A DNA stretch of 64,000 bases from Hyphomicrobiales bacterium. Its GTDB lineage: Bacteria; Pseudomonadota; Alphaproteobacteria; Rhizobiales; Rhizobiaceae. Shown one piece after another: positions 6,859 through 41,804 of this stretch. The DNA is taken from positions 62,001 to 126,000 of the forward strand of contig UCKM01000011.1 in assembly GCA_900473175.1 (NCBI GenBank), read 5' to 3'. The notes beneath the pieces are model-generated. The model was not told where the DNA came from and did no database searches. It saw nothing but the letters and a program-made list of their open reading frames with translations. The position numbers were made by a program, and so were the translations under genes. How positions within the stretch are numbered: the first letter of the stretch is position 1; each line of letters begins with the position of its first letter.

Positions 6859-7662
6859 ATGCAAAAAGCACGACTTGTCATTTTGACCGTCGCAGTCGTT
6901 GCCGCGGGTGCTGCGGGCTATATAGCCACGCACATGAAACCTGATGCGGTTGTCGTCCCGACCGCCGCGCAACCTCAGATCAAATTGCAGGATGTCCTGG
7001 TCGCCACTGAGAACCTTGGTGTCGGCACCGAAATGCAGGGACAGATGCGCTGGCAGGCTTGGCCCGTGGATGCAATAGCAGACGGCTACATCAAGCGCTC
7101 GGATCGGCCGAAAGCGGAAGAAGAACTGAAAGGGTCGACGGTCCGCCTGCGGATATTTACGGGTGAACCTATTCGCGAAGCAAAACTCATTGGCAAGGGC
7201 CAGAGCTTCATGTCGGCACAACTGCCCGCCGGGATGCGGGCGGTGGCCACGCAGATCGCGACGGATACATCCGCCGGTGGCTTCATTCTTCCCGACGACT
7301 ATGTCGATGTCATCATGGTCCAAGAAATCGAAATTCCGCAACAACCAAAGCAATACGTAACTGAGACCGTCCTGCGCAATATACGGGTGTTGGCCATCGA
7401 CCAGACCATTCAGGAAGACGAAAACGGTGAGAAGACCAAGATTGGCTCCACTGCCACGCTGGAACTAACGCCGGAACAGGCGGAAATCATTACGGTGGCC
7501 CATCAGATGGCAGCCCGCCTGTCGCTCGCCCTGCGCTCCGTTCAGGATGCGCAAGAGCAGACCGGACCTGGCGCCGAATATCTTGTCAATTCGCCAGGCC
7601 GCAACGGTAACGTGAAGCTGATTAAGTCCGGCGCCATGGTCGAAATCATGGGGCGGAAATAA
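6859..7662 (+). CDS. cpaB: Flp pilus assembly protein CpaB/RcpC
   Basis: About 267 residues, start taken at the ATG directly after an in-frame TTG. A signal-anchor (LVILTVAVVAAGAAGYIA) is followed by a SAF-like beta-clip domain (about residues 45-110) and the RcpC-type domain. CpaB is a periplasmic component associated with the outer-membrane secretin. It is the first gene of a tightly packed operon, with only 3 bases to cpaC. The C-terminal segment GAMVEIMGRK is typical of the family. Confidence 0.92.
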   Translation: MQKARLVILTVAVVAAGAAGYIATHMKPDAVVVPTAAQPQIKLQDVLVATENLGVGTEMQGQMRWQAWPVDAIADGYIKRSDRPKAEEELKGSTVRLRIFTGEPIREAKLIGKGQSFMSAQLPAGMRAVATQIATDTSAGGFILPDDYVDVIMVQEIEIPQQPKQYVTETVLRNIRVLAIDQTIQEDENGEKTKIGSTATLELTPEQAEIITVAHQMAARLSLALRSVQDAQEQTGPGAEYLVNSPGRNGNVKLIKSGAMVEIMGRK

Positions 7663-7665
7663 GCA

Positions 7666-9273
7666 ATGGGGCACGAAACGAACATCATGCAGATCAAATG
7701 CGGATCCCCCGTATCGCGGGTGTGGAAAACGTTGACATTCGTCCTCGGGTTCAGTCTCGCCCTTCTGCCGGTGCAAAACACGGCAATTGCTGAAAGCAAC
7801 GTCGTAAGGCTGAACGAGAACCAGAGCATAGGCAAGCGCATCAATCTGGGATTGAGCAAATCGCTGGTCATTGACCTTCCGGCCGATGCTTACGACATTC
7901 TTGTTGCCAATCCGACTGTTGCAGACGCAGTTACCCGCACGGCGCGCCGCATCTACCTGTTCGGCAAGCAGGTTGGACAAACCAATGTCTTCGTTTTCGG
8001 GCCGAATGGGGAGCAGCTTGCGAGCTTCGATCTCGTGATCGAGCGCGATGTGGCGGGTCTTGAAGACAGCCTGAGGAAATACATTCCCGATTCCGATATC
8101 AAAGTCGAGCTGATGAATGACAACGTCATCCTGACCGGAACCGTGCAAACGCCTCTTGACGCAAAACGAGCCAGCGATCTTGCCAATCTGCTCGTTTCGG
8201 GCGGTGAAGCAACCACTGGTCAATATGCGCTGACAGCGTCCGGACAGGGCGGCAGCAATGGTGGCGGAGGTTCTGATGTGGCGATCAGCAATCCTGACGA
8301 AGCCCGCCAGAAGAGCAAGATCGTCAATCTGATCCAGATCGCCGGCGATGACCAGGTCACGCTGAAAGTAACGGTGGCCGAGGTGAGCCGCACCGTGATG
8401 AAGCAGCTCGGTGTCAACCTCGTTGGCAAGACCAAGTCGGACGGAATATTCTTCAGCTCCACAAACATTGCTTCGCTGGCAGGCAAGGCCTTGACCAATT
8501 CGGGCGCCTCCATACCGGTATCGATCGGCAGTGCGACGATCGATTCTTATCTCAATGCAATGGAACTTGCCGGTGTCATGAAGACACTCGCTGAACCTTC
8601 GTTGACCGCAGTTTCGGGTGAACAGGCCACATTCAAGGTTGGTGGCGAATACAATATGATCACAGGCCAGAACTCTGGCACCCAAGGCCTGCAGTATCAG
8701 CTCACCAAGGTCGAGTACGGCATTGGGCTGGAATTCGTGCCGATTGTTCTTTCCCCCGGCCGCATCAGCCTGAAGGTGCGAACATCGGTTTCGGAACCGA
8801 CACTGGAAGGTTCGGTCGCGCTCGGCGCGGGTGTCAACTCAACCTACAACGGCACGACGAACAAGAACCTGGCGCAGAATCCTGCGACAAATATCATTTC
8901 CCTGCGCAAGCGTCTGGCGGATACGACCGTGGAATTGCCCTCCGGCGGCTCGATGATGATCGCTGGCCTCATGCGTGACGATAACCGTGCGGCAATTTCC
9001 GGTCTGCCGGGAATGTCCAAGATTCCCATCCTTGGCACCCTGTTCCGCAGCCGCGAATTTATCCGCAACGAGAGTGAACTCGTCATCATCATCACGCCAT
9101 ATCTGGTTCGCCCAGTCGCGCGCACGGCACTTGCCCGGCCCGACGACAATCTCAATCCAGCCAGCGATGCCGCCGGAATCTTCCTTGGCAAGGTCAATCG
9201 TGTCTACGGCACGAAAGAAGCCAGTCTGCCGGCCGGACAATACGAAGGCACTGTCGGATACATATACAAATGA
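7666..9273 (+). CDS. cpaC: Tad secretin CpaC/RcpA
   Basis: 535 residues. A signal peptide (to about residue 42, ending NTAIAE) is followed by a pilus N-domain (LGLSKSLVIDLPADAYDILV), a BON-like stretch (DSDIKVELMNDNVILTGTV) and the secretin barrel. The signature is SKIPILGTLFRSREF in the C-terminal third. It forms the outer-membrane channel through which the Flp pilus passes. A Gly/Ser-rich linker (about residues 192-205) separates the periplasmic and barrel parts. Its last codons overlap cpaD by 4 bases. Confidence 0.95.
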   Translation: MGHETNIMQIKCGSPVSRVWKTLTFVLGFSLALLPVQNTAIAESNVVRLNENQSIGKRINLGLSKSLVIDLPADAYDILVANPTVADAVTRTARRIYLFGKQVGQTNVFVFGPNGEQLASFDLVIERDVAGLEDSLRKYIPDSDIKVELMNDNVILTGTVQTPLDAKRASDLANLLVSGGEATTGQYALTASGQGGSNGGGGSDVAISNPDEARQKSKIVNLIQIAGDDQVTLKVTVAEVSRTVMKQLGVNLVGKTKSDGIFFSSTNIASLAGKALTNSGASIPVSIGSATIDSYLNAMELAGVMKTLAEPSLTAVSGEQATFKVGGEYNMITGQNSGTQGLQYQLTKVEYGIGLEFVPIVLSPGRISLKVRTSVSEPTLEGSVALGAGVNSTYNGTTNKNLAQNPATNIISLRKRLADTTVELPSGGSMMIAGLMRDDNRAAISGLPGMSKIPILGTLFRSREFIRNESELVIIITPYLVRPVARTALARPDDNLNPASDAAGIFLGKVNRVYGTKEASLPAGQYEGTVGYIYK

Positions 9274-9974
9274 ACAGGGACGCGGTCATGTCAGACACAA
9301 CCTCCATTTTACGCATGAAGCCAGTCCTTGCCCTGTTTGCCTTATCGCTCCTCGCCGGGTGCGCGCAGCGCGACATGACAGGCAGTATTCCGGACGACTA
9401 CCGGACCAATCATCCGATCGTGATCTCCGAAAGGGAACAGGTCGCGGATATTCCAGTCGGGCATGGCGACAGCACGCTCTCGCTCACCCAGCGCAGCATT
9501 GTGGAGCATACGGTTGCAAACTATCGCGCAAACGGCTCCGGCATGATCCACATATTGCTGCCGGCCGGTTCGCCCAACGAGCGCGCGGCGGCGCGGCTGC
9601 GTGGCGACGTTGCTGCTGTCCTGCGCAAGGGCGGGGTGAAGCCGTTCAACATCTCCAGCGAACGCTATCAGGCAGGTGCGACAGAATCTGCCCCCATTCG
9701 CCTGTCCTATTCCGCGATGACGGCGTCGACCGGTCCCTGCGGTCAATGGCCGAAAGATCTGCTCGATACGGCGGACAACAGGCACTACGCCAACTTTGGC
9801 TGCGCCAACCAGAACAATCTCGCCGCGCAGATTGCCAATCCCGCCGATCTGCTCGGGCCAAGAGCATCGTCACCGATCGACGCCGAGCGGCGGAGCATCG
9901 TTATCGACGATTACAGAAACGCTGAAACGCCAAAGCCGATCACAACGCAGGAGGTCAATTATGACTTCAATTGA
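9270..9974 (+). CDS. cpaD: Pilus assembly lipoprotein CpaD
   Basis: A 234-residue lipoprotein. The signal ends in the lipobox LLAGC, so the mature protein begins with an acylated Cys. The body matches the CpaD family (RSIVEHTVANYRANGSG, and a C-terminal CGQWPKDL...NFGCANQNNLAAQI block holding two cysteines). CpaD is thought to help place or stabilise the CpaC secretin. The ATG overlaps the cpaC stop (ATGA). A second in-frame ATG seven codons later would leave a more compact signal peptide. Confidence 0.92.
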   Translation: MNRDAVMSDTTSILRMKPVLALFALSLLAGCAQRDMTGSIPDDYRTNHPIVISEREQVADIPVGHGDSTLSLTQRSIVEHTVANYRANGSGMIHILLPAGSPNERAAARLRGDVAAVLRKGGVKPFNISSERYQAGATESAPIRLSYSAMTASTGPCGQWPKDLLDTADNRHYANFGCANQNNLAAQIANPADLLGPRASSPIDAERRSIVIDDYRNAETPKPITTQEVNYDFN

Positions 9975-10007
9975 TCAGCAGTCCTCGTCAAACGGCGGAG
10001 GGCTAAA

Positions 10008-11282
10008 ATGAGTCTGGCTTTCGACACTGAAAATCAATCGGTCGATGGCACTGAGCGATCCATGGGATTGAACGCCTTTCGCCCGGTTCCCCGGATATCG
10101 ATCCAGGCGTTTTGCGAGACGGACGCTGTTGCAAGGCAGATCAGCCGTGCCTGTGAAGACCGCCGCATGGCCAAGACCCATGCGCAGCTTCACATGGGCG
10201 GTCTCGAGCGCGCCGTCGAACTGTTTCAGACTGTGCCGACGCCCAACCTCATTCTGCTCGAAACATCGGCCGCGCCACGCGATACGTTGCAAAGCCTGTC
10301 GGCTCTGTCCGAAGTCTGCGATCCGAGCACGAAGGTTGTCGTCATCGGCCATTTCAACGACGTGTGGCTTTATAGGGAACTGATCCGCAACGGCATATCC
10401 GAGTACATGGTCGCACCGATCGATCTGTCTGACATTATCGGGGTGATTGGCAGCCTGTTCGTGGATCCCGAAGCAAAGCCACTTGGAAGTTCCATTGCGT
10501 TCATCGGCGCCAAGGGCGGTGTCGGTGCCTCGACTGTTGCCCATAACATAGCCTGGGCAATCTCCTCGCTCTTCAAAGCCGAGGTGGTCATCGCCGATAT
10601 GGATCTGCCTTACGGCACTGCCAACATCAATTTCGATCAGGATCCGGCGCAAGGCATAGCGGAAGCGGTTTTCTCGCCGGAGCGCATCGACGACGTCTAT
10701 CTCGACCGGCTATTGGCGCAATGCGCCGAAAACCTTTCACTGCTTGCAGCCCCGTCGACGCTTGATCGCGTCTTCGACTTCCGCGACGATTCCTTTGCAC
10801 ACTTGATCGATGTTGCGCAAAGGTCGGTCCCCCATGTCGTTCTTGACGTGCCGCACTCTTGGAACGGCTGGACTCGAACGACATTGTCGCGGGCAGACGA
10901 GGTTGTGATCGTGGCATCGCCAGAGCTGGCGAACCTTCGCAACACCAAGAATCTGCTGGACACGCTGAAGCAGCTTCGTCCGAACGACGCGCCGCCGCGG
11001 CTCATACTCAACCAGGTTGGCGTTCCAAAACGTCCGGAGATTGCTCCGCTCGATTTCTGCAGTCCGCTTGGGATTCTGCCGATGGCCACCATCCCGTTCG
11101 AACCGGCGCTGTTTGGCAGCGCTGCAAATAACGGGCGAATGCTGGCAGAGACGGATGCCGCCAATCCGATCGTCCAGATGATCAACGAGATGGCGCACAT
11201 CCTGACTGGCCGCATAACGCTCAAGCCCAAGAAGAAACCGGGGCTTTCCGCTGTTTTCTCCAAACTGAAGCGCAAGAAGTAA
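10008..11282 (+). CDS. cpaE: Pilus localisation ATPase CpaE/TadZ
   Basis: 424 residues. The N-terminal third is receiver-like (about 30-150). A ParA/MinD-type ATPase follows, with the deviant Walker motif GAKGGVGAST. The leading signature Lys is kept but the second Lys of the usual GKT/S is Ala, as in other TadZ/CpaE proteins. Later motifs include VIADMDLPYGTAN and the switch VVLDVPHSW. CpaE positions the Tad machine at the pole in Caulobacter. A GGAGG-type site precedes the ATG, and the next gene follows after 19 bases. Confidence 0.93.
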   Translation: MSLAFDTENQSVDGTERSMGLNAFRPVPRISIQAFCETDAVARQISRACEDRRMAKTHAQLHMGGLERAVELFQTVPTPNLILLETSAAPRDTLQSLSALSEVCDPSTKVVVIGHFNDVWLYRELIRNGISEYMVAPIDLSDIIGVIGSLFVDPEAKPLGSSIAFIGAKGGVGASTVAHNIAWAISSLFKAEVVIADMDLPYGTANINFDQDPAQGIAEAVFSPERIDDVYLDRLLAQCAENLSLLAAPSTLDRVFDFRDDSFAHLIDVAQRSVPHVVLDVPHSWNGWTRTTLSRADEVVIVASPELANLRNTKNLLDTLKQLRPNDAPPRLILNQVGVPKRPEIAPLDFCSPLGILPMATIPFEPALFGSAANNGRMLAETDAANPIVQMINEMAHILTGRITLKPKKKPGLSAVFSKLKRKK

Positions 11283-11301
11283 GTGAGATCGAAGAGGCAT
11301 C

Positions 11302-12774
11302 ATGTTTGGTAAACGCGGCAACGCCGGTGGAAATCAGCAGGTTCAGGAATTTCGGGCGATGGCGCTCGAAACCGCCGCGCCGGCTCTCGGAGCATCAGCG
11401 GCCGAACCTTCCCGCTTGCCGCGGGACATTCTGGAGCCAAAGCGTTCACCCGTCGAAACGCCGAAGCCAGCTGCGCCGGTGCGCGAAAAGAACGAGGCCT
11501 ATTACGACACCAAATCCCAGGTTTTCGCGGCGCTGATTGATACCATCGATCTGGCGCAACTGTCGAAACTCGATCCAGACGTCGCGCGCGAGGAAATCCG
11601 CGATATTGTCAACGACATCATCGCGATCAAGAATTTCGCCATGTCGATTTCAGAGCAGGAAGAGCTGCTCGATGATATCTGCAACGATGTGCTTGGTTAT
11701 GGTCCGCTCGAGCCACTGCTGGCCCGCGACGACATCGCCGATATCATGGTCAATGGTGCGCGCAAGACCTATATCGAAGTGCAGGGCAAGGTTCAGGAGT
11801 CAGGTGTCCGTTTCCGCGACAACCAGCAGCTTCTGAACATCTGTCAGCGCATCGTCAGCCAGGTCGGCCGCCGCGTCGATGAATCAAGCCCGATCTGCGA
11901 CGCGCGTTTGCCCGACGGCTCGCGCGTCAACGTCATCGCGCCGCCGCTGGCGATCGATGGGCCGGTCCTTACAATCCGCAAATTCAAGAAGGACAAGCTG
12001 ACGCTCGACCAGCTTGTGCGGTTCGGCGCGATTTCCCCTGCCGGTGCAGAACTGTTGCAGATCATTGGCCGCGTTCGTTGCAATATCGTCATCTCAGGGG
12101 GCACGGGTTCGGGCAAGACGACGCTCTTGAACTGTCTGACCAATTACATCGACAAGGACGAACGCGTAATCACCTGCGAAGACTCAGCCGAACTTCAACT
12201 GCAGCAGCCGCATGTGGTGCGCCTTGAAACACGGCCTGCAAACCTAGAAGGCGAGGGCGAGATCACGATGCGCGATCTCGTCAAGAACTGCCTGCGCATG
12301 CGACCCGAACGCATCATCGTCGGCGAAGTGCGCGGACCGGAAGTCTTCGATCTGCTGTCGGCGATGAATACCGGTCACGACGGCTCGATGGGAACGATCC
12401 ACTCCAACAGCCCGAGGGAATGCCTGAGCCGTATCGAATCCATGATTGCCATGGGCGGCTTCTCGCTGCCGCAGAAAACGGTGCGCGAAATCATCGTCGG
12501 TTCGGTCGATATCATCATTCAGGCTGCGCGCCTGCGTGATGGCTCGCGCCGGATCACTCATGTCACCGAGGTCATAGGCATGGAAGGTGAGGTAATCATC
12601 ACCCAGGATCTCGTCGTCTACCAGATCACAGGCGAGGACGCGAACGGCCGGCTCATTGGCAAGCATGTCTCTACCGGCATCAGCCGTCCTCACTTTTGGG
12701 AACGGGCCCGCTACTTCAATGAAGATCGGCGTCTGGCCAATGCGCTGGATTCCATGGAAATCGCGCAAGGGTAA
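11302..12774 (+). CDS. cpaF: Tad secretion ATPase CpaF/TadA
   Basis: 490 residues, a type II/IV secretion hexameric ATPase. It shows Walker [13 protein letters not shown] (about residues 265-276), the Asp-box [11 protein letters not shown], Walker [12 protein letters not shown] and the His-box MGTIHSNSP. The first 90 residues are Pro/Ala-rich and probably disordered. It powers extension, and possibly retraction, of the Flp pilus. The operon continues into tadB after 27 bases. Confidence 0.96.
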
Positions 12775-12801
12775 TGATGGCTGCGACAGGAGAAGCAAGC
12801 G

Positions 12802-13815
12802 ATGTTCGGGCTTAGTCTGCCGCAGATTCTGTTTGTCTGCCTTGTGGCTTTGGCAGTGGCGGCGCTCGCCTATGTCTTCTTCTTCGAATCGATCGCCACG
12901 CAGAAAAAGACCGACGAGCGGCTGAAAACGGTGCAGCTCGCCGCGACAGACAGTCTGGGCAAATTTGCGGTTCGGGATAAACAGGCCGAGGCGGCCAAGC
13001 GTCGCAGGTCTGTTCAGGACACGCTGAAAGATATCGAGCAGCGCCAGAAACTGCGCGACAAGAACATCAAATCACCGCCTCTGAAGATGCTGCTGGTGCA
13101 AGCCGGGATGAAGGTGACGGTCCAGCGGTTCTACATATACTCAATTGTCACCGGCATCCTTGTCACGCTGTTGGGTCTGTTCCTGGGCTCGCCGCTCTAT
13201 CTCGCACCGGGACTGTTTCTGGCCGGCGTATTCGGCCTACCGCGCTGGTTCGTTTATTTCCGCCGCGGCCGCCGCATCAAAGCCTTTCTCCGGGAGTTTC
13301 CCAATTCCATTGACGTGATCGTGCGTGCGCTCCGGTCCGGCCTTCCTCTTAACGATGGCATCAGGCTTATTGCCGTGGAAGCTCAAGAGCCGGTCCGCGG
13401 TGAGTTTCGCCGGATGGTCGATGGGCAACAGGTCGGCATAAGCATTCCTGAATCGTCGATGCGTATGTCGGAATACATGCCGTGCCCCGAAGCAAGCTTC
13501 TTCGGCATCGTCATTCAGATCCAGTCGCAGGCGGGCGGTAACCTTTCCGAAGCGCTTGGCAATCTCTCTCGCGTCCTGCGCGACCGCAAAAAGATGGCCG
13601 CCAAGGTCCAGGCACTCTCCATGGAAGCCAAGGCGTCAGCATATATCATCGGCGCCTTGCCGTTCATCGTTGCCGTGCTCGTCTATTTGTCGAGCCCTGA
13701 CTACATCCTGGTCCTGTTCAGGACAGATACAGGCCACGTCATCATGGGCTGTGCTGGCGTCTGGATGTCGATCGGCATCCTTGTCATGAAGAAAATGATC
13801 AATTTCAAATTCTGA
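12802..13815 (+). CDS. tadB: Tad inner-membrane platform protein TadB
   Basis: 337 residues with an N-terminal membrane segment (about 5-25), a central pair of helices (about 108-150), a T2SSF domain containing the GNLSEALGNLSRVLRDR motif, and two C-terminal helices. It forms the membrane platform engaged by CpaF, together with TadC. Confidence 0.93.
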   Translation: MFGLSLPQILFVCLVALAVAALAYVFFFESIATQKKTDERLKTVQLAATDSLGKFAVRDKQAEAAKRRRSVQDTLKDIEQRQKLRDKNIKSPPLKMLLVQAGMKVTVQRFYIYSIVTGILVTLLGLFLGSPLYLAPGLFLAGVFGLPRWFVYFRRGRRIKAFLREFPNSIDVIVRALRSGLPLNDGIRLIAVEAQEPVRGEFRRMVDGQQVGISIPESSMRMSEYMPCPEASFFGIVIQIQSQAGGNLSEALGNLSRVLRDRKKMAAKVQALSMEAKASAYIIGALPFIVAVLVYLSSPDYILVLFRTDTGHVIMGCAGVWMSIGILVMKKMINFKF

Positions 13816-13836
13816 TCCGGAAGGTCAAGACCCTCA

Positions 13837-14862
13837 ATGATCGCCACCATCGCCAAAGCCATGCATGACCCGGCCGTTATTTTTGCAGCCCTCGTCGGTG
13901 TCTCGGTCTTCGCAACCCTCGTGACCTTCCTGATGCCAATGCTTTCAGGTTCCAGCCTGAAGACGCGAATGAAGTCGGTGGCGCTGGAACGGGACCAGAT
14001 CAGGTCGCGCGAGCGGGCGCGCATGGCGAGTGAGAGTGAAACCCGGCGCAAAAATGCCAGCGGTTCGCTGCGCATGACCGAGCGCCAGGGCATCAGGCAG
14101 TTCGTCGAACGGCTCGACCTGCAACGGGCCCTCGCCGACGAGAAGACGATGGCGGCGCTGCGCATGGCCGGATTTCGTGGCCAGAACGCGCTCAATATCT
14201 TCCTGACGGCGCGTTTCGGCCTGCCTTTCGTGACACTTGGTCTGACCGTGTTCTGGATTTTCGGCATGGGTGGCCTTGCCGAAAAAGCGACGATGATCCG
14301 CGTGACTGCATGTCTCGCCGGCGCCTATGTGGGCTTCTATCTGCCCAATCTTTACGTGAAGAATTGCGGCTCGAAGCGCCAGCAATCGATCAAGCTCGCC
14401 TGGCCTGACGCACTGGACCTGATGCTCATCTGCGTCGAATCCGGCATGTCGATCGAAGCAGCCTTCAAGAAGGTCTCTGAAGAAATTGGCGCCCAGTCTG
14501 CCGAACTGGCAGAGGAGTTGATCCTCACCAATGCAGAATTGTCCTTCCTGCCGGAACGGCGACAGGCCTATGAAAATCTCGCCATTCGCACCGGCCTCGA
14601 GACCGTCAAGTCGGTGGTGCAGGCGCTGACCCAGTCGGAGCGCTACGGAACATCCATCGGCAGTGCCCTGCGCGTCCTTTCCGACGAAAGCCGCGAGGCG
14701 CGTTTGATGGAGGCGGAAAAGAAAGCCGCAGCGCTGCCCCCGAAGCTGACAGTGCCGATGATCGTGTTCCTGTTGCCTGTATTGTTTGCCGTTATTCTTG
14801 GCCCAGCATTCATCCAGATATCGGCCCAGGGTGGCATATTCGGCCACGCGACGCCCAAATAA
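13837..14862 (+). CDS. tadC: Tad inner-membrane platform protein TadC
   Basis: 341 residues, the second T2SSF-domain platform protein. Motifs include WPDALDLMLICVESGMSIE and ALTQSERYGTSIGSALRVL, followed by the usual EKKAAALPPKLTVPMI turn into the last membrane helix. It is the last plus-strand gene of the pilus operon and ends before a hairpin at 14888-14915. Confidence 0.93.
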   Translation: MIATIAKAMHDPAVIFAALVGVSVFATLVTFLMPMLSGSSLKTRMKSVALERDQIRSRERARMASESETRRKNASGSLRMTERQGIRQFVERLDLQRALADEKTMAALRMAGFRGQNALNIFLTARFGLPFVTLGLTVFWIFGMGGLAEKATMIRVTACLAGAYVGFYLPNLYVKNCGSKRQQSIKLAWPDALDLMLICVESGMSIEAAFKKVSEEIGAQSAELAEELILTNAELSFLPERRQAYENLAIRTGLETVKSVVQALTQSERYGTSIGSALRVLSDESREARLMEAEKKAAALPPKLTVPMIVFLLPVLFAVILGPAFIQISAQGGIFGHATPK

Positions 14863-14887
14863 GGCTTGGCGCTTCTCACTGACCGAT

Positions 14888-14915
14888 AAAAAAGCCGCCC
14901 CGAATGGAGCGGCTT
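14888..14915 (-). terminator. Intrinsic terminator between tadC and tadD
   Basis: A 7-bp stem (14892-14898 with 14909-14915) with a 10-base loop is followed on the minus strand by six T. It fits termination of the minus-strand tadD gene and may also slow plus-strand transcription from tadC. Confidence 0.75.
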
Positions 14916-14937
14916 CTCTCGATGTTCCAAATGAAGA

Positions 14938-15768
14938 TCAGCTTTTTGGCTTCTTGTCCTTGAGCATGGTCCATGAATTCTGCTGGGCCAGCATGGACCG
15001 CAGGTACTGCACGTTCGCCTGTGCCTGTTGCGGCGAAAGTTCCTGCTTTGCGATCGTCTCCGCTTCGTCAAACCGGCCCTGGAGCCCGACGACCAGGGCA
15101 AGGTTCTGACGGACCCGGCTGTCTGAACCCGGCGCGCTGGCGGCCTTGCGCATATAGCTTTCGGCGGTGTTGAGCTCGCCAGACAGCACGTAAGACATGC
15201 CCAGATTGGAGAGGATAGAGGCCTCGTTCGGATTGATCTGCAGGGCCTGGCGGTAGAGGTCGCGCGCCTCGCTGGTCTTGCCCAATTGATCAAGAATGGC
15301 GCCCTGCGCCGAAAGCAGTTTCCAGTCCGGATATTCCGGAGTCTGGGCGCGGCGCAATGCATCCAGTGCCGCTTCGAACTCGCCGGTGCTGGCAAGCGCC
15401 TTGCCATAGGCGGCGAGGACCTCGCGGTCTTGCGGATAGGCGATTGCCAGGCTGCGCATCACCGCGAGAGCCTGATCGCTACGGTTGGTCATGCGCAGGA
15501 CAGTGGCAAATTTCATTGCCGTTGCCTTGTCTTTTGGATTGGCCTGATAGCGCGAACCGAGGCTCGTCGATGCCTGCATCAACTGCTGCTCGTTCATCTG
15601 GTCGAAATCGCCAGCATCAGGCATCGCCATTGAACTGACGGCCGGTGTAATCGAACCCGTCGTGGTCTTGTCGGTGGTCGTGCAGCCGGATATGCCTGCT
15701 GCCAGTGCAACCACCGCGACAGAAAAAATCAGGCGGCGATTACGTTGAATAATGCCTGCGCTTCCCAT
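14938..15768 (-). CDS. tadD: TPR lipoprotein TadD
   Basis: About 276 residues from the chosen ATG (a GTG seven codons upstream is possible). The signal ends in ISGC, a lipobox. Tetratricopeptide helices follow, for example ALAVMRSLAIAYPQDREVLAAYGKAL and YRQALQINPNEASILSNLGM. TadD-type lipoproteins act with the secretin and CpaD at the outer membrane. It is transcribed towards the main pilus operon. Its upstream region holds the same GTTAACCCTAA element seen before cpaB. Confidence 0.87.
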   Translation of the reverse strand: MGSAGIIQRNRRLIFSVAVVALAAGISGCTTTDKTTTGSITPAVSSMAMPDAGDFDQMNEQQLMQASTSLGSRYQANPKDKATAMKFATVLRMTNRSDQALAVMRSLAIAYPQDREVLAAYGKALASTGEFEAALDALRRAQTPEYPDWKLLSAQGAILDQLGKTSEARDLYRQALQINPNEASILSNLGMSYVLSGELNTAESYMRKAASAPGSDSRVRQNLALVVGLQGRFDEAETIAKQELSPQQAQANVQYLRSMLAQQNSWTMLKDKKPKS

Positions 15769-15834
15769 AGTTTGCCCCATCCGCAGCACAATTTACATGT
15801 GCATTATGCCCAATCCCACACTTAGAAATATTCT

Positions 15835-15857
15835 GTTAACCCTAACGGACCGTTAAC
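15835..15857. promoter_or_regulatory. Paired GTTAAC elements between tadD and pepA
   Basis: Two GTTAAC hexamers (15835-15840 and 15852-15857) lie in the divergent tadD/pepA spacer. The first continues as GTTAACCCTAA, identical over 11 bases to 6781-6791 in front of cpaB. This may be a shared regulator site, possibly CtrA-like. It is an inference only. Confidence 0.35.
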
Positions 15858-15904
15858 AACGTGATGCCGATACAGAAGAAGCAAGACCGAAGGAGAAAGC
15901 TGTC

Positions 15905-17275
15905 ATGGCGATTGAAATCAAAGGGAAAAAGTCAGCCGACAGCAAGCCAGTCTGGATGGTCAAAAGTGGCGAATCAGAAAGCGCCGGGCTGGACGCCGCG
16001 GCGCTCGCCTGGGCCAAGGCCAACGGCTTTGATGGACAGTCCGGGCGGGTGCTTGTTATTCCGGGCGAGAAGGGTGAAATTGCCGGTGCTCTGCTTGGTA
16101 TCGGCAAGGACAATTCACCGTTCATCGCGGGAAAACTCGCGACCGGACTGCCGAAAGGGGCCTGGCATATGGCCGGCCCTGTCAGCGAACCTGATCTGGC
16201 GGCTTTAGGCTTTCTCCTCGGCGGCTACAAATTCGCTCGGTACAGCAAGAAAGACGACCTCGATGTCACGCTGACATTACCCGAGGCCGCGAATAAGGCT
16301 GATGTAAAACGCATCGCAAGTGCTGTGACGCTGGCGCGCGATTTGATCAACACGCCGACCAATGACATGGGACCGGAAGCGCTTGAGCAGGCGGTGCGCC
16401 AAGTCGGCGATGAATACAAGGCTTCTGTCAGTGTCATCAAGGGCGATGCTCTACTCAAGAAGAACTTCCCGATGATCCATGCGGTTGGCCGGGCAGGCAG
16501 CGAACAGCCGCGACTGATCGACCTCGAGTGGGGCAAGGAGGGAGCGCCGCGGGTTACGCTGGTGGGCAAAGGTGTCTGTTTTGACACTGGCGGTCTCGAT
16601 ATCAAGCCGGCGAGCAGTATGTTGCTGATGAAGAAGGACATGGGCGGTGCCGCCAATGTACTGGCACTCGCGCAGCTCATCATGGATGCCAACCTCCCGG
16701 TGCGTCTGCGGGTTCTCATTCCTGCGGTTGAGAATTCCATCTCCGCCAATGCATTCCGTCCGAGCGATGTCTTGACCAGCCGCAAAGGCCTGACGGTGGA
16801 GATCGGCAACACCGATGCAGAAGGCCGTCTTGTCCTGGCTGACGCGCTGGCGCTGGCCGACGAGGAGGAACCGGAAATCCTTATCGACATGGCGACACTG
16901 ACCGGCGCGGCGCGCGTGGCGCTGGGGCCCGACCTGCCGCCATTTTATACCAATGACCATACCTTCGCGGCAGACGTGGCCACCGCCGCAGAATCCGTTG
17001 CCGATCCTGTCTGGCGCATGCCTTTGTGGCAGCCGTATGAGAGCAAGCTTTCCTCGCGCATCGCCGACACCAACAATGTGACGACGGACGGGTTTGCCGG
17101 GTCGATTACAGCTGCACTTTTCCTGCAGAAATTCGTCGGCAAGGCGAAGATCTGGGCGCATTTCGATATTTTCGGTTGGAACCCCGTTGAGAAGCCGCAA
17201 GCACCGATCGGTGGTGAGGCGCAAGCGATACGCGCGCTTTACCAAATTCTGAAGCAGCGTTATCCAGCCAAATGA
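15905..17275 (+). CDS. Leucyl aminopeptidase (M17 family)
   Basis: 456 residues. The catalytic C-terminal domain carries the M17 signature NTDAEGRLVLADAL (about residue 300) and the metal/substrate residues in VGKGVCFDTGGLDIKP and MKKDMGGAA. It is a cytosolic di-zinc exopeptidase releasing N-terminal residues from peptides. It is slightly shorter than PepA of E. coli (503), with a reduced N-terminal domain. An AAGGAG site precedes the ATG. Confidence 0.93.
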   Translation: MAIEIKGKKSADSKPVWMVKSGESESAGLDAAALAWAKANGFDGQSGRVLVIPGEKGEIAGALLGIGKDNSPFIAGKLATGLPKGAWHMAGPVSEPDLAALGFLLGGYKFARYSKKDDLDVTLTLPEAANKADVKRIASAVTLARDLINTPTNDMGPEALEQAVRQVGDEYKASVSVIKGDALLKKNFPMIHAVGRAGSEQPRLIDLEWGKEGAPRVTLVGKGVCFDTGGLDIKPASSMLLMKKDMGGAANVLALAQLIMDANLPVRLRVLIPAVENSISANAFRPSDVLTSRKGLTVEIGNTDAEGRLVLADALALADEEEPEILIDMATLTGAARVALGPDLPPFYTNDHTFAADVATAAESVADPVWRMPLWQPYESKLSSRIADTNNVTTDGFAGSITAALFLQKFVGKAKIWAHFDIFGWNPVEKPQAPIGGEAQAIRALYQILKQRYPAK

Positions 17276-17332
17276 GTTGCTTGCACGCAGTTGCGCAAGG
17301 TTTAGAATGGAACGGAGCCGAAATGATCGCGG

Positions 17333-17692
17333 ATGCCGTTAATGCTGATCGAATTGAAGCCGATGCAGGCGCTGACACTGTGGAAGGAAATCGCGATCTC
17401 CGAGGTGCGCGATGATGCGCACGATCTCACCATGCGGCAACTGGCCGTGCTGTTGACGGTATACCTGGAGCCGCCACCGCATACGATACGCGGCATGGCT
17501 GCAAAGCTTGGCGTAACCAAGCCCGTCATCACACGTGCTCTTGACACAATGGGCGGCTATGGCCTGGTCGATCGCCATCGCGATGACAAGGACAAGCGCA
17601 ACGTGCTCGTCAAGAGAACGGTAAAGGGTGCGCTTTATGTTGAAAAGCTTGGCGACCTCGTCATCGCCAAAGCAAGAGGATTGCCACTTTGA
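17333..17692 (+). CDS. MarR-type winged-helix regulator
   Basis: A 119-residue DNA-binding protein. The winged-helix core is TMRQLAVLLTVYL, then the recognition helix GMAAKLGVTKPVITRALDTM and the wing RHRDDKDKRNVLVKRT, the charged turn of MarR proteins. Its stop codon overlaps the TTG start of the next gene, so the two are coupled. Target and ligand are unknown. Regulation of the adjacent NlpC/P60 gene is an inference from position. Confidence 0.8.
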   Translation: MPLMLIELKPMQALTLWKEIAISEVRDDAHDLTMRQLAVLLTVYLEPPPHTIRGMAAKLGVTKPVITRALDTMGGYGLVDRHRDDKDKRNVLVKRTVKGALYVEKLGDLVIAKARGLPL

Positions 17693-18561
17693 AAGCTGAG
17701 AACATCTCGTTGGACAAGCGACTGAATGCCTATCGTCCCGACCTCGCCGACCAGGCCCTGCGCGGCATGGTCAAAGCGGAGCGCTTTGTTGCCGGCGCGC
17801 CCATGCGCATTGCCGATCCGGTCGTCGATGTGCGTTCCGAACCGCGGGGCGATGCCGGCATCACGACACAATTCCTTTATGGCGATGATGTGCTGGTGTT
17901 CGAGGACGACAATGGCTGGTGCTGGGTTCAGAACGAGCGTGACGGCTATGTCGGTTATGTGGTGGATACGACGCTAGAACGCCGCGCAGCCGACCCGACC
18001 CATATCGTCATCGCGCCGCGAACCTTCATCTACCCGGGGTCAGACCTGAAATATCCGCGCACGAAAGCCCTATCTATGGGCTCGCTCGTCAGCATCACGG
18101 GTGGCGAGGAGCGGCGCGGCACACTCTATGCAATGCTGCCGAGCGGCGAGGCGATGATCGCCAAGCATCTCGTGCCCATCGATGAAGTGGCTGACGATCA
18201 CGTGGCGGTCGCGGAAACACTGATGCACACGCCCTATCTGTGGGGCGGCGTATCCGGCTTCGGCATCGACTGCTCGGGCCTTGTTCAACTTGCATTGCTG
18301 ATGACCGGACAGGGCGTCCTGCGCGATTCCGACATGCAGGCGTCCTCCATCGGCGAACCGATCGAACCGGATAGGGACTATCACAATCTCCAGCGTGGCG
18401 ACTTCGTTTTCTGGAAGGGGCACGCTGCAATGATGGCAAGCCATTCGATGCTTCTGCACGCAAGCGGGCATACGATGAGCGTAACGCTTGAGCCGCTGCG
18501 TGACGCAATTGAACGCACCGCCTATCTCTATGGCAAGCCAACCGCTGTAAGGCGGCTGTGA
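17689..18561 (+). CDS. NlpC/P60 cell-wall peptidase with SH3-like domains
   Basis: 290 residues. Two bacterial SH3-like regions occupy about residues 35-165, and a C-terminal NlpC/P60 domain holds the catalytic Cys195 (GIDCSGLV) and His candidates at 245 and 257 (KGHAAMM, LLHASG). It resembles dipeptidyl-peptidase VI-type gamma-D-glutamyl-diamino acid hydrolases acting on murein peptides. No signal peptide is visible, so it probably recycles muropeptides in the cytoplasm. The start is TTG with AGAGG upstream, overlapping the stop of the MarR gene. Confidence 0.88.
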   Translation: MKAENISLDKRLNAYRPDLADQALRGMVKAERFVAGAPMRIADPVVDVRSEPRGDAGITTQFLYGDDVLVFEDDNGWCWVQNERDGYVGYVVDTTLERRAADPTHIVIAPRTFIYPGSDLKYPRTKALSMGSLVSITGGEERRGTLYAMLPSGEAMIAKHLVPIDEVADDHVAVAETLMHTPYLWGGVSGFGIDCSGLVQLALLMTGQGVLRDSDMQASSIGEPIEPDRDYHNLQRGDFVFWKGHAAMMASHSMLLHASGHTMSVTLEPLRDAIERTAYLYGKPTAVRRL

Positions 18562-18571
18562 ATGGAACAAC

Positions 18572-18603
18572 AACCGACCTGATTTTTTACAAACAGGTTG
18601 GTT
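18572..18603. terminator. Hairpin between convergent genes
   Basis: Arms 18572-18581 and 18594-18603 pair over 10 bp with one G-T pair around a T-rich loop. It lies between the convergent NlpC/P60 and ghrA-like genes. No clear T-run follows on either strand, so termination is tentative. Confidence 0.45.
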
Positions 18604-18606
18604 CGT

Positions 18607-19563
18607 TTAGTACTGGGCGGCCCGATCGACGATGTTCTTCAAGGGCTCGCCGCGCTCGTAGGATTCGATCTGTGCCACGATCTCGGGAACGAGCGCCTGC
18701 GGGCTGGAACTCGCCGCCGCGTGCGGTGTGATCGTTACCTGCGGGTGCGTCCAGAGCGGGCTGTCCTTCGGTAAGGGTTCCCGGTTGAACACGTCGAGCG
18801 TCACCGCCGACAGCATGCCACGGTCGAGTGCCGCCAGAATGTCCGGCTCGTTCTGCAGTCCGCCGCGACCCGCATTGATCAGCGTCGGGGCACCGAGCGG
18901 GCCATGTGGCTTCATCTGCGCGAACATGGTCATGGAGAGGATGCCCTTGGTGTCCGGCGTCAGCGGCAAAAGGCAGACGACGATATCAGCATCCTTCAGG
19001 AAGTCCTTGAGCCCGTCCTTGCCATAATGGCTGGTGACACCTTCTATGGTTTGCAGGCGGCGGCTCCAGCCGCTGACGCGGAAGCCGAGCATGCGCAGTT
19101 TCTGCGCAGCGTCACGGCCGAGAACGCCGAGGCCGAGGATACCGACCGTCACCTCATGCGCTGCAGGCTGGCGACGATCCTCATGCCAGATACGCTGGCC
19201 CTGCTGCTGGCGATAACGCAATCCGAGCCGATGATGGTCGAGCACCTGCCAGACGACATATTCGCTCATGCGCATGGTCAGGTCTGGCGAAACGATGCGG
19301 ACGATGGGCACATCGGGGATCTGCTGGTCGTGAAACACGTGGTCGACGCCGGCGCCCAGCGAGAAGATGACCTCAAGATTAGGCAGACCGGCAAGCGATC
19401 CCTGGCGCTGCTTCCATACCAGTGCGTAGCGGATCTTTTCCTTGTCCGTCGTCGTGTCGGTCACGAGCTTGCGCTTTGGCGCGGCCTTGGCAAATTCAGA
19501 CAGCCAGACGTGCGGATCCCATCCGGTCACAGCCAGCAGGATTGTATCTCCATTCCCAGTCAT
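18607..19563 (-). CDS. ghrA: D-2-hydroxyacid dehydrogenase, glyoxylate/hydroxypyruvate reductase A-like
   Basis: 318 residues. The Rossmann segment is VGILGLGVLGRDAAQKL. The catalytic region has INAGRGGLQNEPD (Arg), DVFNREPLP (Glu) and ITPHAAA (His). This matches the GhrA branch, which reduces glyoxylate and hydroxypyruvate with NADPH. It overlaps the end of yejF by 4 bases and is the last gene of the peptide-transport operon. The link to peptide uptake is unexplained. Confidence 0.88.
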   Translation of the reverse strand: MTGNGDTILLAVTGWDPHVWLSEFAKAAPKRKLVTDTTTDKEKIRYALVWKQRQGSLAGLPNLEVIFSLGAGVDHVFHDQQIPDVPIVRIVSPDLTMRMSEYVVWQVLDHHRLGLRYRQQQGQRIWHEDRRQPAAHEVTVGILGLGVLGRDAAQKLRMLGFRVSGWSRRLQTIEGVTSHYGKDGLKDFLKDADIVVCLLPLTPDTKGILSMTMFAQMKPHGPLGAPTLINAGRGGLQNEPDILAALDRGMLSAVTLDVFNREPLPKDSPLWTHPQVTITPHAAASSSPQALVPEIVAQIESYERGEPLKNIVDRAAQY

Positions 19564-38873: not shown

Positions 38874-38892
38874 TGTGAAAATATTATTCACA
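38874..38892 (+). promoter_or_regulatory. Palindromic operator candidate upstream of the MaoC/CoA-transferase operon
   Basis: TGTGAA and TTCACA form a perfect dyad around a 7-base AT spacer. A possible -35 (TTGCCA, 38856-38861) lies just upstream, so a protein bound here would overlap the -10 region. The ATG of the first gene is at 38960. Confidence 0.5.
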
Positions 38893-38959: not shown

Positions 38960-39514
38960 ATGACGGGTTTTGTGCCCACCATTGGAGTATCCTCCACCCG
39001 TCCAAAAAACATGCCCGAGGATCACGCAGCCTTACCCGTCTGGAATGCCGAGAACTGGTTTTATGAAGATTGGCCGGTCGGCCAGAAAATCCGCTCGCTG
39101 CGGCGGACAATTTCGGAAAGCGACAGCCATCTCTTCAATCTGCTGGTCACTGACATTCACCCCTATGTTCAGGATCAGATGTTCGCGGAGAGCGAAGGCA
39201 TGTTCGGCAGACGGCTCGTCGCTGGCGCCTTCGTGTTTTCTGCCGGGCTTGGCCTCGTCGCCACCAATTGCGTCAACGCCTTCTCCTATGGCTACGACAA
39301 GCTGCGGTTCATCAAGCCCGTCTTCCTGAACGACACCATCTATACGATCCGCACAAACCTCGACAAGCGTCCACGCTACAGGGAGCTGGGCCTCATCCGC
39401 GCCAGCTATGAAGTGTTCAAGAATGAGGGCGAACTTGTACTCTATTGCGAACATCTTCAGACGGTGAAGTACCAGAATCCCGCCGATTTCATTGGAAAGA
39501 CCGAGAAAGAATGA
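38960..39514 (+). CDS. MaoC-like hot-dog dehydratase
   Basis: 184 residues. After a short N-terminal tail it has [19 protein letters not shown], the MaoC opening, a possible catalytic Asp/His pair in [10 protein letters not shown], and [16 protein letters not shown], then [12 protein letters not shown]. It is probably an (R)-specific enoyl-CoA hydratase or mesaconyl-CoA-type hydratase. The chosen ATG has GAGGTG upstream. It overlaps the CoA-transferase by 4 bases (ATGA), so the two act in one pathway. Confidence 0.85.
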
Positions 39515-40668
39515 CTGCGAATGAACTACCCCTGACGGGCTTGCTCGTCGTCGACATGAGCCAGTTCCTTTCGGGGCCCTATGCATCGCTGCGCCTGATG
39601 GATCTTGGTGCGCGGGTCATAAAGATCGAACGGCCGGACGGCGGCGATCTATCGCGCCGCCTCTATCTCAGCGATACGGAAATCGGCGGGGATTCAACGA
39701 TTTTCCATGCAATCAACCGCGCCAAGGAAAGTCTGGCGATTGATCTGAAGAACCAGGCCGATGTCGAGGCGCTGAAAGCGCTGCTCGCCAAGGCCGACGT
39801 GCTGATCCAGAATTTCAGGCCCGGTGTGATCAAACGGCTTGGGCTCGACTATGAGGCCGTCAAGGCGATCAATCCGCGCCTCGTCTATGCAGGCATCAGT
39901 GGCTATGGCGAACAAGGTCCCTGGGTTGCGCGCCCCGGCCAGGATTTGCTGGCGCAGTCACGATCCGGGTTGATGTGGCTCAACGGCGATGAGAGTCAGG
40001 GGCCCGTGCCCTTCGGTCTTGCGGTGGGCGATATGCTGGCAGGCGCGGCGACCGTTCAGGGTATTCTTGCCGCGCTGGTGCGGCGCGGTATCAGCGGCGA
40101 GGGCGCGCATATCGAGACAAGTCTGATGGAATCGCTCATCGATTTTCAGTTCGAGGTGCTGACCACGCATTTGAATGACGGTCGCCGCCTGCCGAAGCGC
40201 TCGGACTTTCGCAGCGCCCACGCCTATCTCTCGGCGCCCTATGGCGTTTATCAGACAAGTGACAGCTATCTCGCGCTCGCCATGACACCGCTGCCGAAAC
40301 TGGCCGATCTGCTCCACCTGGATGGGCTAGGACCATATCGCGATGATCCGGCCACGTGGTTCACGTCCCGCGACGAAATCAAGCGCGTCATCGCCGCAAA
40401 GCTTTCGACGCAAACCACTGAGCACTGGCTTTCCATCCTCGAGCCCGCCGATATCTGGTGCGCGAAAGTGTTGAACTGGGAGGAATTACTGCAAAGCGAA
40501 GGCTTCAAGGTGCTCGACATGCTGCAAACGGTCGAGCGTGAAGACAATGTCTCGATCCTGACCACGCGCTCACCTATCCGCGTCAATGGCAAGCGGGCCA
40601 AGTTCGATCGGGCTGCGCCGCGCATCGGCGAGCATAGCGAAGCCATCCGCAAGGAGTTCGGATTGTGA
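39511..40668 (+). CDS. CoA-transferase family III (CaiB/BaiF)
   Basis: 385 residues with the class III fold: [21 protein letters not shown] at the start, [14 protein letters not shown], and the catalytic Asp in [11 protein letters not shown] (about residue 172). It moves CoA between acyl groups through an aspartyl-anhydride. The substrate is unknown. Coupling to a MaoC dehydratase suggests activation of a dicarboxylic or hydroxy acid, followed by hydration or dehydration of its CoA ester. Confidence 0.92.
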
Positions 40669-41804
40669 CGGCAGTCACGCTGAAAGGCATGACCTGGAGT
40701 CATCCGCGCGGATACGATCCAATGGTTGCGTGTTCGGCGCTTTGGCATGGCAGGACCGGCATCAGCATCGAATGGGAAAAGCGCTCGCTACAGGATTTCG
40801 AATCCTTCCCCGTCGATGAGCTGGCCCGGAAATACGACCTGATCGTTATCGATCACCCGCATGTCGGCCAGATAACGGCTGGAAACTGCCTTGCCCCGCT
40901 TGATATCGCCGGGCGCGAATCCGAGCGCGATGCGCTCCTGCGGGGCAGCGTTGGACAATCCTACCCAAGCTATCGCTGGCAGGGCCGGCAATGGGCGTTT
41001 CCGATCGATACCGCAAGCCAGGTGGCAGCTTGGCGCCCTGACCTCATCGACAAGCCGCTCGGCGCCTGGAGCGAGGTTCTGGCACTTGCATCGCAGGGTA
41101 GGGTGCTGCTGCCGCTGCGCCCACCCCACACGCTGATGACGTTCTATACGCTAAGCGCGAATATGGGATGGCCCTGTGCGACATCCCCCCTGGGCGATCT
41201 CATTGAGCCGGAGCGCGGGGCCACGATATTCAAAATGATGCGCGAAATATCAGAGCTGATCGACCGGTCCTGTTTCGAGATGGATCCGATCGGCGTTCTG
41301 GAAAAAATGGCAGAGGCAAACTCCGCCATTGCCTATTCGCCTTTGATCTATGGCTACGTCAGTTATGCGATGCGCGGCTTCAGGCCCAATCTGGTTGCGT
41401 TCGCCGATATCCCGGCGGCGGGGCAAAATGGTCCTGTTGGGTCGGCGCTTGGCGGTACTGGCATTGCCGTTTCCGCCTTCTCGTCACATCGCGATAAGGC
41501 AATCGATTTCGCCTATTGGGTTGCCGGTGGTGATGTGCAGCGCGGACCCTACGCCGAGGCTGGCGGCCAGCCCGGCCACGCACTGGCCTGGGATGATGAA
41601 CTCGTCAATGCGGCGACGACAAATTTCTATTTGGCGACCCGCAAGACGCTCGAGAATTGCTGGGTGCGCCCGCGTCATAACGGTTACATGGCCTTCCAGC
41701 AGGTGGCTTCCGACCGGCTCAATGCGGGGCTATTGGGCCAGCACGAGGCGCGAAGGGTCATCGATGATCTGAATCGGCTCTTTCGGGAGAGTTTTGCGGG
41801 CTAG
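40665..41804 (+). CDS. Solute-binding-protein homologue without a signal peptide
   Basis: 379 residues, GTG start overlapping the CoA-transferase stop (GTGA). The body resembles family 1 ABC substrate-binding proteins: GGTGIAVSAFSSHRDKAIDF and GGQPGHALAWDDE near the C-terminus. The N-terminus [16 protein letters not shown] has no hydrophobic signal and no lipobox, so the protein is predicted cytoplasmic. No permease or ATPase gene is nearby. It may sense or sequester a ligand of the linked CoA-ester genes, or be an enzyme on the binding-protein fold. Function unknown. Confidence 0.82.
   Translation: MTAVTLKGMTWSHPRGYDPMVACSALWHGRTGISIEWEKRSLQDFESFPVDELARKYDLIVIDHPHVGQITAGNCLAPLDIAGRESERDALLRGSVGQSYPSYRWQGRQWAFPIDTASQVAAWRPDLIDKPLGAWSEVLALASQGRVLLPLRPPHTLMTFYTLSANMGWPCATSPLGDLIEPERGATIFKMMREISELIDRSCFEMDPIGVLEKMAEANSAIAYSPLIYGYVSYAMRGFRPNLVAFADIPAAGQNGPVGSALGGTGIAVSAFSSHRDKAIDFAYWVAGGDVQRGPYAEAGGQPGHALAWDDELVNAATTNFYLATRKTLENCWVRPRHNGYMAFQQVASDRLNAGLLGQHEARRVIDDLNRLFRESFAG

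Follow-up and report, generated by a model that had tools for sequence, protein, structure and literature searches.

What would a solute-binding protein (SBP) without an export signal do beside genes of acyl-coenzyme A (acyl-CoA) chemistry? The question arises from three genes in the window, by which we mean the whole 64,000-nucleotide stretch that was analyzed, taken from contig UCKM01000011.1 of a Hyphomicrobiales bacterium (GCA_900473175.1, positions 62,001 to 126,000). The trio encodes a MaoC-type hot-dog protein, a class III (CaiB/BaiF) CoA-transferase (CoAT), and a signal-less SBP that we call cSBP. We found that cSBP is a near-obligate partner of CoAT and that the pair recurs in sugar gene clusters. 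We tentatively suggest that cSBP is the cytoplasmic partner of the neighboring CoAT and that both form the core of a module that degrades L-fucose-type sugars via a thioester. We regard this reading as quite possible, if somewhat short of probable.

cSBP lacks an export signal

In the window, the GTG start of cSBP follows a ribosome-binding-like AAGGAG and lies 9 codons from the preceding in-frame stop. Therefore, no earlier start can restore a signal, and a missed upstream start is ruled out. The start is 7 residues ahead of the family signature, GMTW[SDN]HPRGY, and all 135 relatives with a recognizable motif have an in-frame start codon 1 to 15 residues ahead of it. We compared the N termini of these relatives with those of ordinary SBPs from the same loci by giving the first 45 residues of both sets a 10-residue hydrophobicity score (threshold, 1.9) and trying every start codon within 60 residues. 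By this crude score, which is not SignalP, the N terminus was hydrophobic in 0 of 135 cSBP relatives, of which 80 are close, compared with 75 of the 77 ordinary SBPs, 74 of which are one kind of sugar ATP-binding cassette (ABC) SBP. Where relatives have a longer open frame upstream, no start within 60 residues yielded a hydrophobic stretch. A cSBP fragment without the motif was excluded from the scoring. It comes from Rhizobium sp. RCAM05350 (locus L163, 7998-9130), where cSBP is split over two frames and unannotated, and it is either a broken copy or a sequencing error.

On a haloarchaeal plasmid, a divergent second type of cSBP also begins without a signal, while a twin-arginine translocation (Tat) lipobox is present on the ABC SBP encoded a few genes away. 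The original prediction of a GTG start and no export signal was thus borne out, and the lack of a signal extended to every relative that was scored. We predict that cSBP is a cytoplasmic protein. Annotated records label cSBPs as "extracellular" or "ABC transporter" solute-binding proteins.

cSBP is a near-obligate partner of CoAT

Among the best 80 of 317 relatives, which we call the close loci, CoAT was present in 80 and MaoC in 73; two of the seven loci without MaoC (L016 and L044) stop at a contig edge. These counts indicate that the gene association is not due to chance. We also profiled 297 Hyphomicrobiales genomes. With bit cut-offs that were set after we had seen the score gaps (cSBP, at least 325; CoAT, at least 450; MR/MLE, at least 448), cSBP and its CoAT co-occurred in 25 of 26 genomes each way (phi 0.96), and genome G230 was counted as being without cSBP, yet it has a 243-bit cSBP beside its CoAT. 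A Gfo/Idh dehydrogenase tracked cSBP as well (22/26 and 22/24, phi 0.87; E cut-off, 1e-60), followed by an enolase-family enzyme (17/26 and 17/36, phi 0.51) and L-fuconate dehydratase (11/26 and 11/40, phi 0.26; E cut-off, 1e-120), in searches that scored the best four to six candidates per genome and may undercount large families.

A cSBP search at E 0.001 matched 93 of the 297 genomes, and many of the matches were weak ones to ordinary SBPs. The genome of the window has one copy at this cut-off. Below 1e-20 there were 54 places, and we took wide regions of 40 of them, leaving out the ten closest and four others. CoAT lay within the region taken in 32 of these 40 further loci. As for the other eight, four (L114, L117, L127, and L135) have a CoAT relative within about 12 kb on the same contig, one (L130) sits on a 6.8-kb contig, and for three (L118, L146, and L147) no CoAT was found in the region or by the same-contig check. 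In the phylum sample, CoAT was present in 12 of 12 cSBP regions taken, from 22 places. Our 53 wider ("far") loci include 10 annotated label-reference loci and two Sinorhizobium meliloti records of one locus.

Plasmid records with cSBP and CoAT came from Azospirillum, roseobacters, Streptomyces (with CoAT 3 to 4 kb away), and two Bacteroidota genera. The divergent second type of cSBP occurs in Croceibacterium and Halostagnicola larsenii, in which CoAT is part of the cluster and not adjacent. The set thus recurs across Hyphomicrobiales, where the original prediction proposed to look for it, but it is not confined to that order, as related cSBP-CoAT pairs are present in alphaproteobacteria, Streptomyces, and Bacteroidota and, in divergent form, in a haloarchaeon. 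Gene orders vary (mao-cat-sbp, mao-sbp-cat, sbp-cat, and sbp1-cat1-cat2-sbp2), and two cSBPs stand alongside two CoATs in Bacteroidota. The identity matrices of cSBP and CoAT correlate over 44 loci (Mantel r 0.78; best of 2000 permutations, 0.24), in a test that had no control gene for the shared species phylogeny and to which shared ancestry contributes. This set comprised five chosen close loci and the far loci with both genes, from which L151 and L163 were dropped. On S. meliloti pSymB (L151/L152, 10841-13128), the region upstream of the CoAT-SBP pair yielded no MaoC, and in S. meliloti ml21 an IS21 element follows the pair. In S. meliloti 1021, the pSymB orthologue occupies NC_003078.1:732459-733580. 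The core of the original prediction, a binding-protein fold that lacks a signal and is tied to CoA-related genes, therefore holds across 135 relatives, with CoAT pairing in several phyla.

cSBP has a MalE-like fold with conserved cleft residues

The closest solved relatives of cSBP by sequence are LpqY (3.3e-9, phmmer) and TMBP. An AlphaFold2 model of cSBP has a pLDDT of 75.8 and a pTM of 0.72, with weak C-terminal stretches. Foldseek matched this model best to LpqY (7ape, E 7.5e-16), with MalE structures also among the top matches, and the model superposes poorly on the LpqY and MalE structures (template modeling score of about 0.5). By hhalign, cSBP aligns with MalE over 330 columns (E 4e-7).

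Fifteen residues are invariant in an alignment of 46 sequences, the most distant of which shares 28% identity with the window protein. They include W11, R15, D58, D63, P65, D115, G263-264, G301-Q302, W309, and R335, and H64 is conserved in at least 90% of the sequences. The cSBP signature aligns with the MalE loop 12-17, and by hhalign R15 and D63-H64 fall on the MalE loops 12-17 and 62-68, which we take to be the loops contacting maltose. Therefore, the cleft seems to have been kept while its specificity changed.

cSBP shares fold and sequence with the CUT1-type sugar SBPs (MalE, LpqY, TMBP, and SmoF; PF13416/PF01547). It differs from them in three respects: no signal peptide was seen in those of its relatives that were scored, it is not the SBP of any ABC operon, and its cleft motif is different (WxHPRGY and DHPH). 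SgrR, MqnA, and Thi5-like proteins are SBP-fold proteins that are active in the cytosol, as regulator or enzyme, and so offer a precedent for such roles. They belong to different SBP clusters and are not known to have a CoA-transferase partner.

The trio often lies near clusters of L-fucose type

In many genomes the trio is near L-fucose-type oxidative clusters, with Gfo/Idh, a second MaoC, a lactonase-type amidohydrolase, a mutarotase, an IclR regulator, and a sugar ABC transporter. Of the 80 close loci, 65 have IclR within 10 kb of the trio, 64 the lactonase-type amidohydrolase, and 59 a sugar ABC SBP. Farther from the trio, and often past the stretch covered, are Gfo/Idh (35 loci), an L-rhamnose-mutarotase homologue (35), an enolase-family enzyme (34), a small MaoC (33), and a short-chain dehydrogenase/reductase (SDR; 26). 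IclR is also present in 31 of the 53 wider loci. The absence of a permease or ATPase beside the trio, part of the original prediction, is true of the window stretch, while 59 of the close loci have a sugar ABC SBP nearby. The cSBP-CoAT pair is accompanied by either a hot-dog MaoC or an unrelated crotonase, and both families usually act on acyl-CoAs.

An alpha-L-fucosidase is annotated in the Croceibacterium and Halostagnicola clusters. The haloarchaeal plasmid cluster (L217, 3921-14170) contains the divergent signal-less SBP, a CoA transferase, an AMP-binding protein, MaoC, Gfo/Idh, and the alpha-L-fucosidase; judging by its family name, the AMP-binding protein is likely an acyl-CoA ligase. 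This sugar-cluster context favors a sugar or a sugar acid as the probable ligand of cSBP over a generic acyl-CoA or organic acid.

In the genome of the window, the L-fucose-type sugar cluster is on another contig and is unlinked from the trio (contig C39, region L180 at 203500-223400, cluster at 6882-19043). It encodes an L-fuconate dehydratase homologue, with 565 bits to 2hne and 737 bits to 4ip4, an enolase-family protein with no named function. It also encodes relatives of L-fucono-1,5-lactonase and of 2,4-didehydro-3-deoxy-L-rhamnonate hydrolase, both below the NCBIfam cut-offs. The nearest PDB entry to the second enolase-family enzyme of this cluster is 3,6-anhydro-L-galactonate cycloisomerase.

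The classical oxidative L-fucose pathway consists of fucose dehydrogenase, fuconolactonase, L-fuconate dehydratase, an SDR, and a diketo hydrolase, and it is not known to include a CoA step. The trio shares clusters, and probably the early intermediates, with this pathway. However, the L-fuconate dehydratase of the pathway tracks the trio poorly, as its phi value shows, which weakens the idea that the trio is simply a part of the classical pathway.

Active sites of CoAT and MaoC

The window CoAT matches PF02515 over its full length and keeps the CoA-binding segments. Its Glu207 stands at the position of the catalytic Asp, which we take to be Asp169 of Frc. At this position, 117 other locus CoATs have Glu (98), Asp (5), Ser (6), or Ala (8), and each of the four groups largely retains the CoA-binding segments NRxK and NFR. 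The solved protein 10uh, which bears the name formyl-CoA transferase, likewise has Glu there. The Ala and Ser CoATs belong to sister clusters (L132-L134, L137-L139, L141-L145, L149, L150, and L162).

The (R)-specific enoyl-CoA hydratase has a hot-dog fold with an Asp/His dyad. The trio MaoC keeps Asp65 and has Val70 in place of the His. Of 80 aligned trio MaoCs, 79 have this Val, and the remaining row looks misaligned. Both dyad residues are intact in 44 of 44 sequences of the small MaoC from the sugar cluster. These residues suggest that the trio MaoC is possibly a non-catalytic or altered hydratase subunit. It could form a heteromer with the small MaoC, in the manner of HadA/HadB, which is a heteromer of catalytic and non-catalytic subunits.

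A possible thioester route

The pairing of cSBP and CoAT with a hydratase from one of two unrelated folds recurs in sugar clusters, and so thioester-assisted dehydration is the simplest reading. In this scheme, the sugar would be taken up through an ABC transporter or RhaT, and a Gfo/Idh/MocA dehydrogenase, with the lactonase where present, would convert it to the sugar acid. The cSBP cleft would clamp the sugar acid and present it to CoAT, so that cSBP and CoAT would work as a complex. CoAT would transfer CoA to the acid, probably from the product thioester. The resulting thioester would be dehydrated by the MaoC-type hydratase, or by the crotonase in sister clusters, and the CoA would be handed on to the next acid.

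The CaiB/CaiD carnitine system likewise places a class III CoA-transferase beside a CoA-ester hydratase type, as is seen here with MaoC and, in sister clusters, with crotonase. Unlike CaiB/CaiD, the module described here stands in a sugar-cluster context and has a third component with an SBP fold, and most of its transferases have Glu (or Ala/Ser) instead of Asp. The linkage of the genes suggests that CoAT and the hydratase may act on one thioester, as CaiB and CaiD do. In that system, CaiB allows CoA to cycle from product to substrate (PMC2131755). Price et al. mention glyceryl-CoA in deoxyribonate oxidation (PMC9007349), so sugar-acid thioesters are not without precedent.

Several observations weigh against this scheme. 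The sister CoATs with Ala or Ser at the catalytic position make the classical mechanism alone impossible for them, and the trio MaoC has lost the dyad His. Eleven of the 26 trio genomes also carry the classical L-fuconate dehydratase and would need no second dehydration route. These three points are unexplained by the scheme. In addition, a few genomes (G259 and the genomes with L146 and L147) have a cSBP with no detected CoAT, the module itself is uncommon, occurring in 18 of 398 genomes of the phylum sample at E 1e-20, and part of the co-divergence of cSBP and CoAT comes from shared ancestry. The upstream element AAATTTCGCC, described below, is absent from the upstream region of the window trio itself.

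Alternative roles for cSBP

cSBP might instead be a cytosolic sensor that, on binding free sugar or acid, would switch CoAT or the IclR regulator on or off, with no delivery of substrate. An SBP fold with a strongly conserved cleft would suit such a role, as would the frequency of IclR in the close and wider loci and the presence of cSBP even where the CoATs have no catalytic carboxylate. However, the pairing with CoAT persists when both are duplicated, as with the two cSBPs and two CoATs of Bacteroidota, which fits a subunit better. Furthermore, Pfam gave no extra domain in the 46 aligned cSBPs, save one weak, chance-like match. We consider a sensor unlikely.

We likewise give only a small chance to the idea that cSBP is an enzyme that acts on the sugar acid or its CoA ester by means of R15, D63, H64, and D115. 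SBP-like proteins that are enzymes do exist, such as cyclohexadienyl dehydratase and MqnA. Three of the four residues are invariant and H64 is nearly so, and R15 and D63-H64 align with the MalE loops. Catalytic residues are altered in several of the CoAT and MaoC partners, so some of the chemistry may have moved elsewhere. However, D63 and R15 could equally bind a ligand, and we know of no CUT1/MalE-type SBP that is an enzyme.

The resemblance to LpqY and MalE, together with the lack of an adjoining transporter in the window, could also mean that cSBP is a relic of an ABC transporter, left under weak selection beside unrelated acyl-CoA genes. This is very improbable and we reject it, because 15 residues are invariant at identities as low as 28%, the phi value with CoAT is 0.96, and the pair is kept across phyla in rearranged order. 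Least probable of all is that cSBP is exported by a route without an N-terminal signal and serves the neighboring sugar ABC, whose SBP lies within 10 kb in 59 of the close loci; this was rejected because the nearby ABC operons in annotated relatives carry their own SBP (hydrophobic at the N terminus in 75 of 77 controls), in the archaeal locus the ABC SBP bears a Tat lipobox that cSBP lacks, and the incomplete gene tables of the two Bacteroidota loci include RhaT (in one case also SusCD) but no ABC permease.

Organization of the locus and upstream elements

The coordinates, strand, and 4-base overlaps of the three genes agree with the original prediction (Table 1); the overlap is ATGA between MaoC and CoAT and GTGA between CoAT and cSBP. 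The trio stands alone in the window, preceded by ilvD and a homologue of glutathionyl-hydroquinone reductase (names assigned from sequence). Among the 80 close loci, ilvD is present in 8 and the reductase homologue in 9.

Table 1. Positions of the trio and associated elements in the window
Feature	Coordinates	Strand	Matches or basis
MaoC-type hot-dog protein, 184 aa	38960..39514	+	PF01575 2.6e-12; nearest PDB 4ffu, 1q6w
Class III (CaiB/BaiF) CoA-transferase (CoAT), 385 aa	39511..40668	+	PF02515 4.5e-98; PDB matches formyl-CoA transferase, YfdE
Signal-less solute-binding protein (cSBP), 379 aa, GTG start, MalE/LpqY (CUT1-type) fold	40665..41804	+	PF13416 7.3e-8
cSBP family signature GMTW[SDN]HPRGY, right after the start	40686..40715	+	46-sequence alignment; hhalign with MalE
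Conserved palindrome TGTGAAAATATTATTCACA 5' of the trio, perfect 6-bp arms, possible operator/promoter element	38874..38892	.	

A palindrome of the TATGTGAA-N-TTCAC type was found in 72 of 74 trio upstream regions. A second element, AAATTTCGCC, lies upstream of the trio in 39 of 73 cases and upstream of the fucose-type ABC operon in 13 of 53, with 15 occurrences elsewhere in 1.57 Mb, and this link rests on Mesorhizobium-type loci that are related to each other. We looked for an operator common to the window trio and the fucose-type cluster of the same genome and found no shared palindrome. The 10-mer ATACCCATAT, common to the two, was seen by eye and is not counted as evidence.

A predicted cytosolic use of the SBP fold

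The protein families of the trio are known; their combination and the predicted cellular location of cSBP are new. Within the listings and passages of open-access literature that were covered, with subscription journals mostly outside this coverage, no description of a signal-less SBP that accompanies a CoA-transferase was found, and to that extent the original claim that no system of this form has been described stands. The passages of PMC11378808 that were covered make no mention of the trio.

More broadly, and with slightly greater doubt than for the L-fucose-type module, we propose that an SBP fold may have been recruited to the cytosol as the sugar-acid subunit of a CoA-transferase. In combination with MaoC or crotonase, it might provide an unrecognized CoA-thioester route for 6-deoxy and other sugars in Alphaproteobacteria, Actinomycetota, and Bacteroidota, and in divergent form in Haloarchaea. 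That a signal-less SBP is almost never found apart from a CoA-transferase indicates a use of the SBP fold that has gone unrecorded, and the existing labels of cSBPs misdirect the annotation of transporters. If the thioester reading is true, it would add a new chemical logic to sugar breakdown, in which a sugar acid is activated by CoA ahead of its dehydration.

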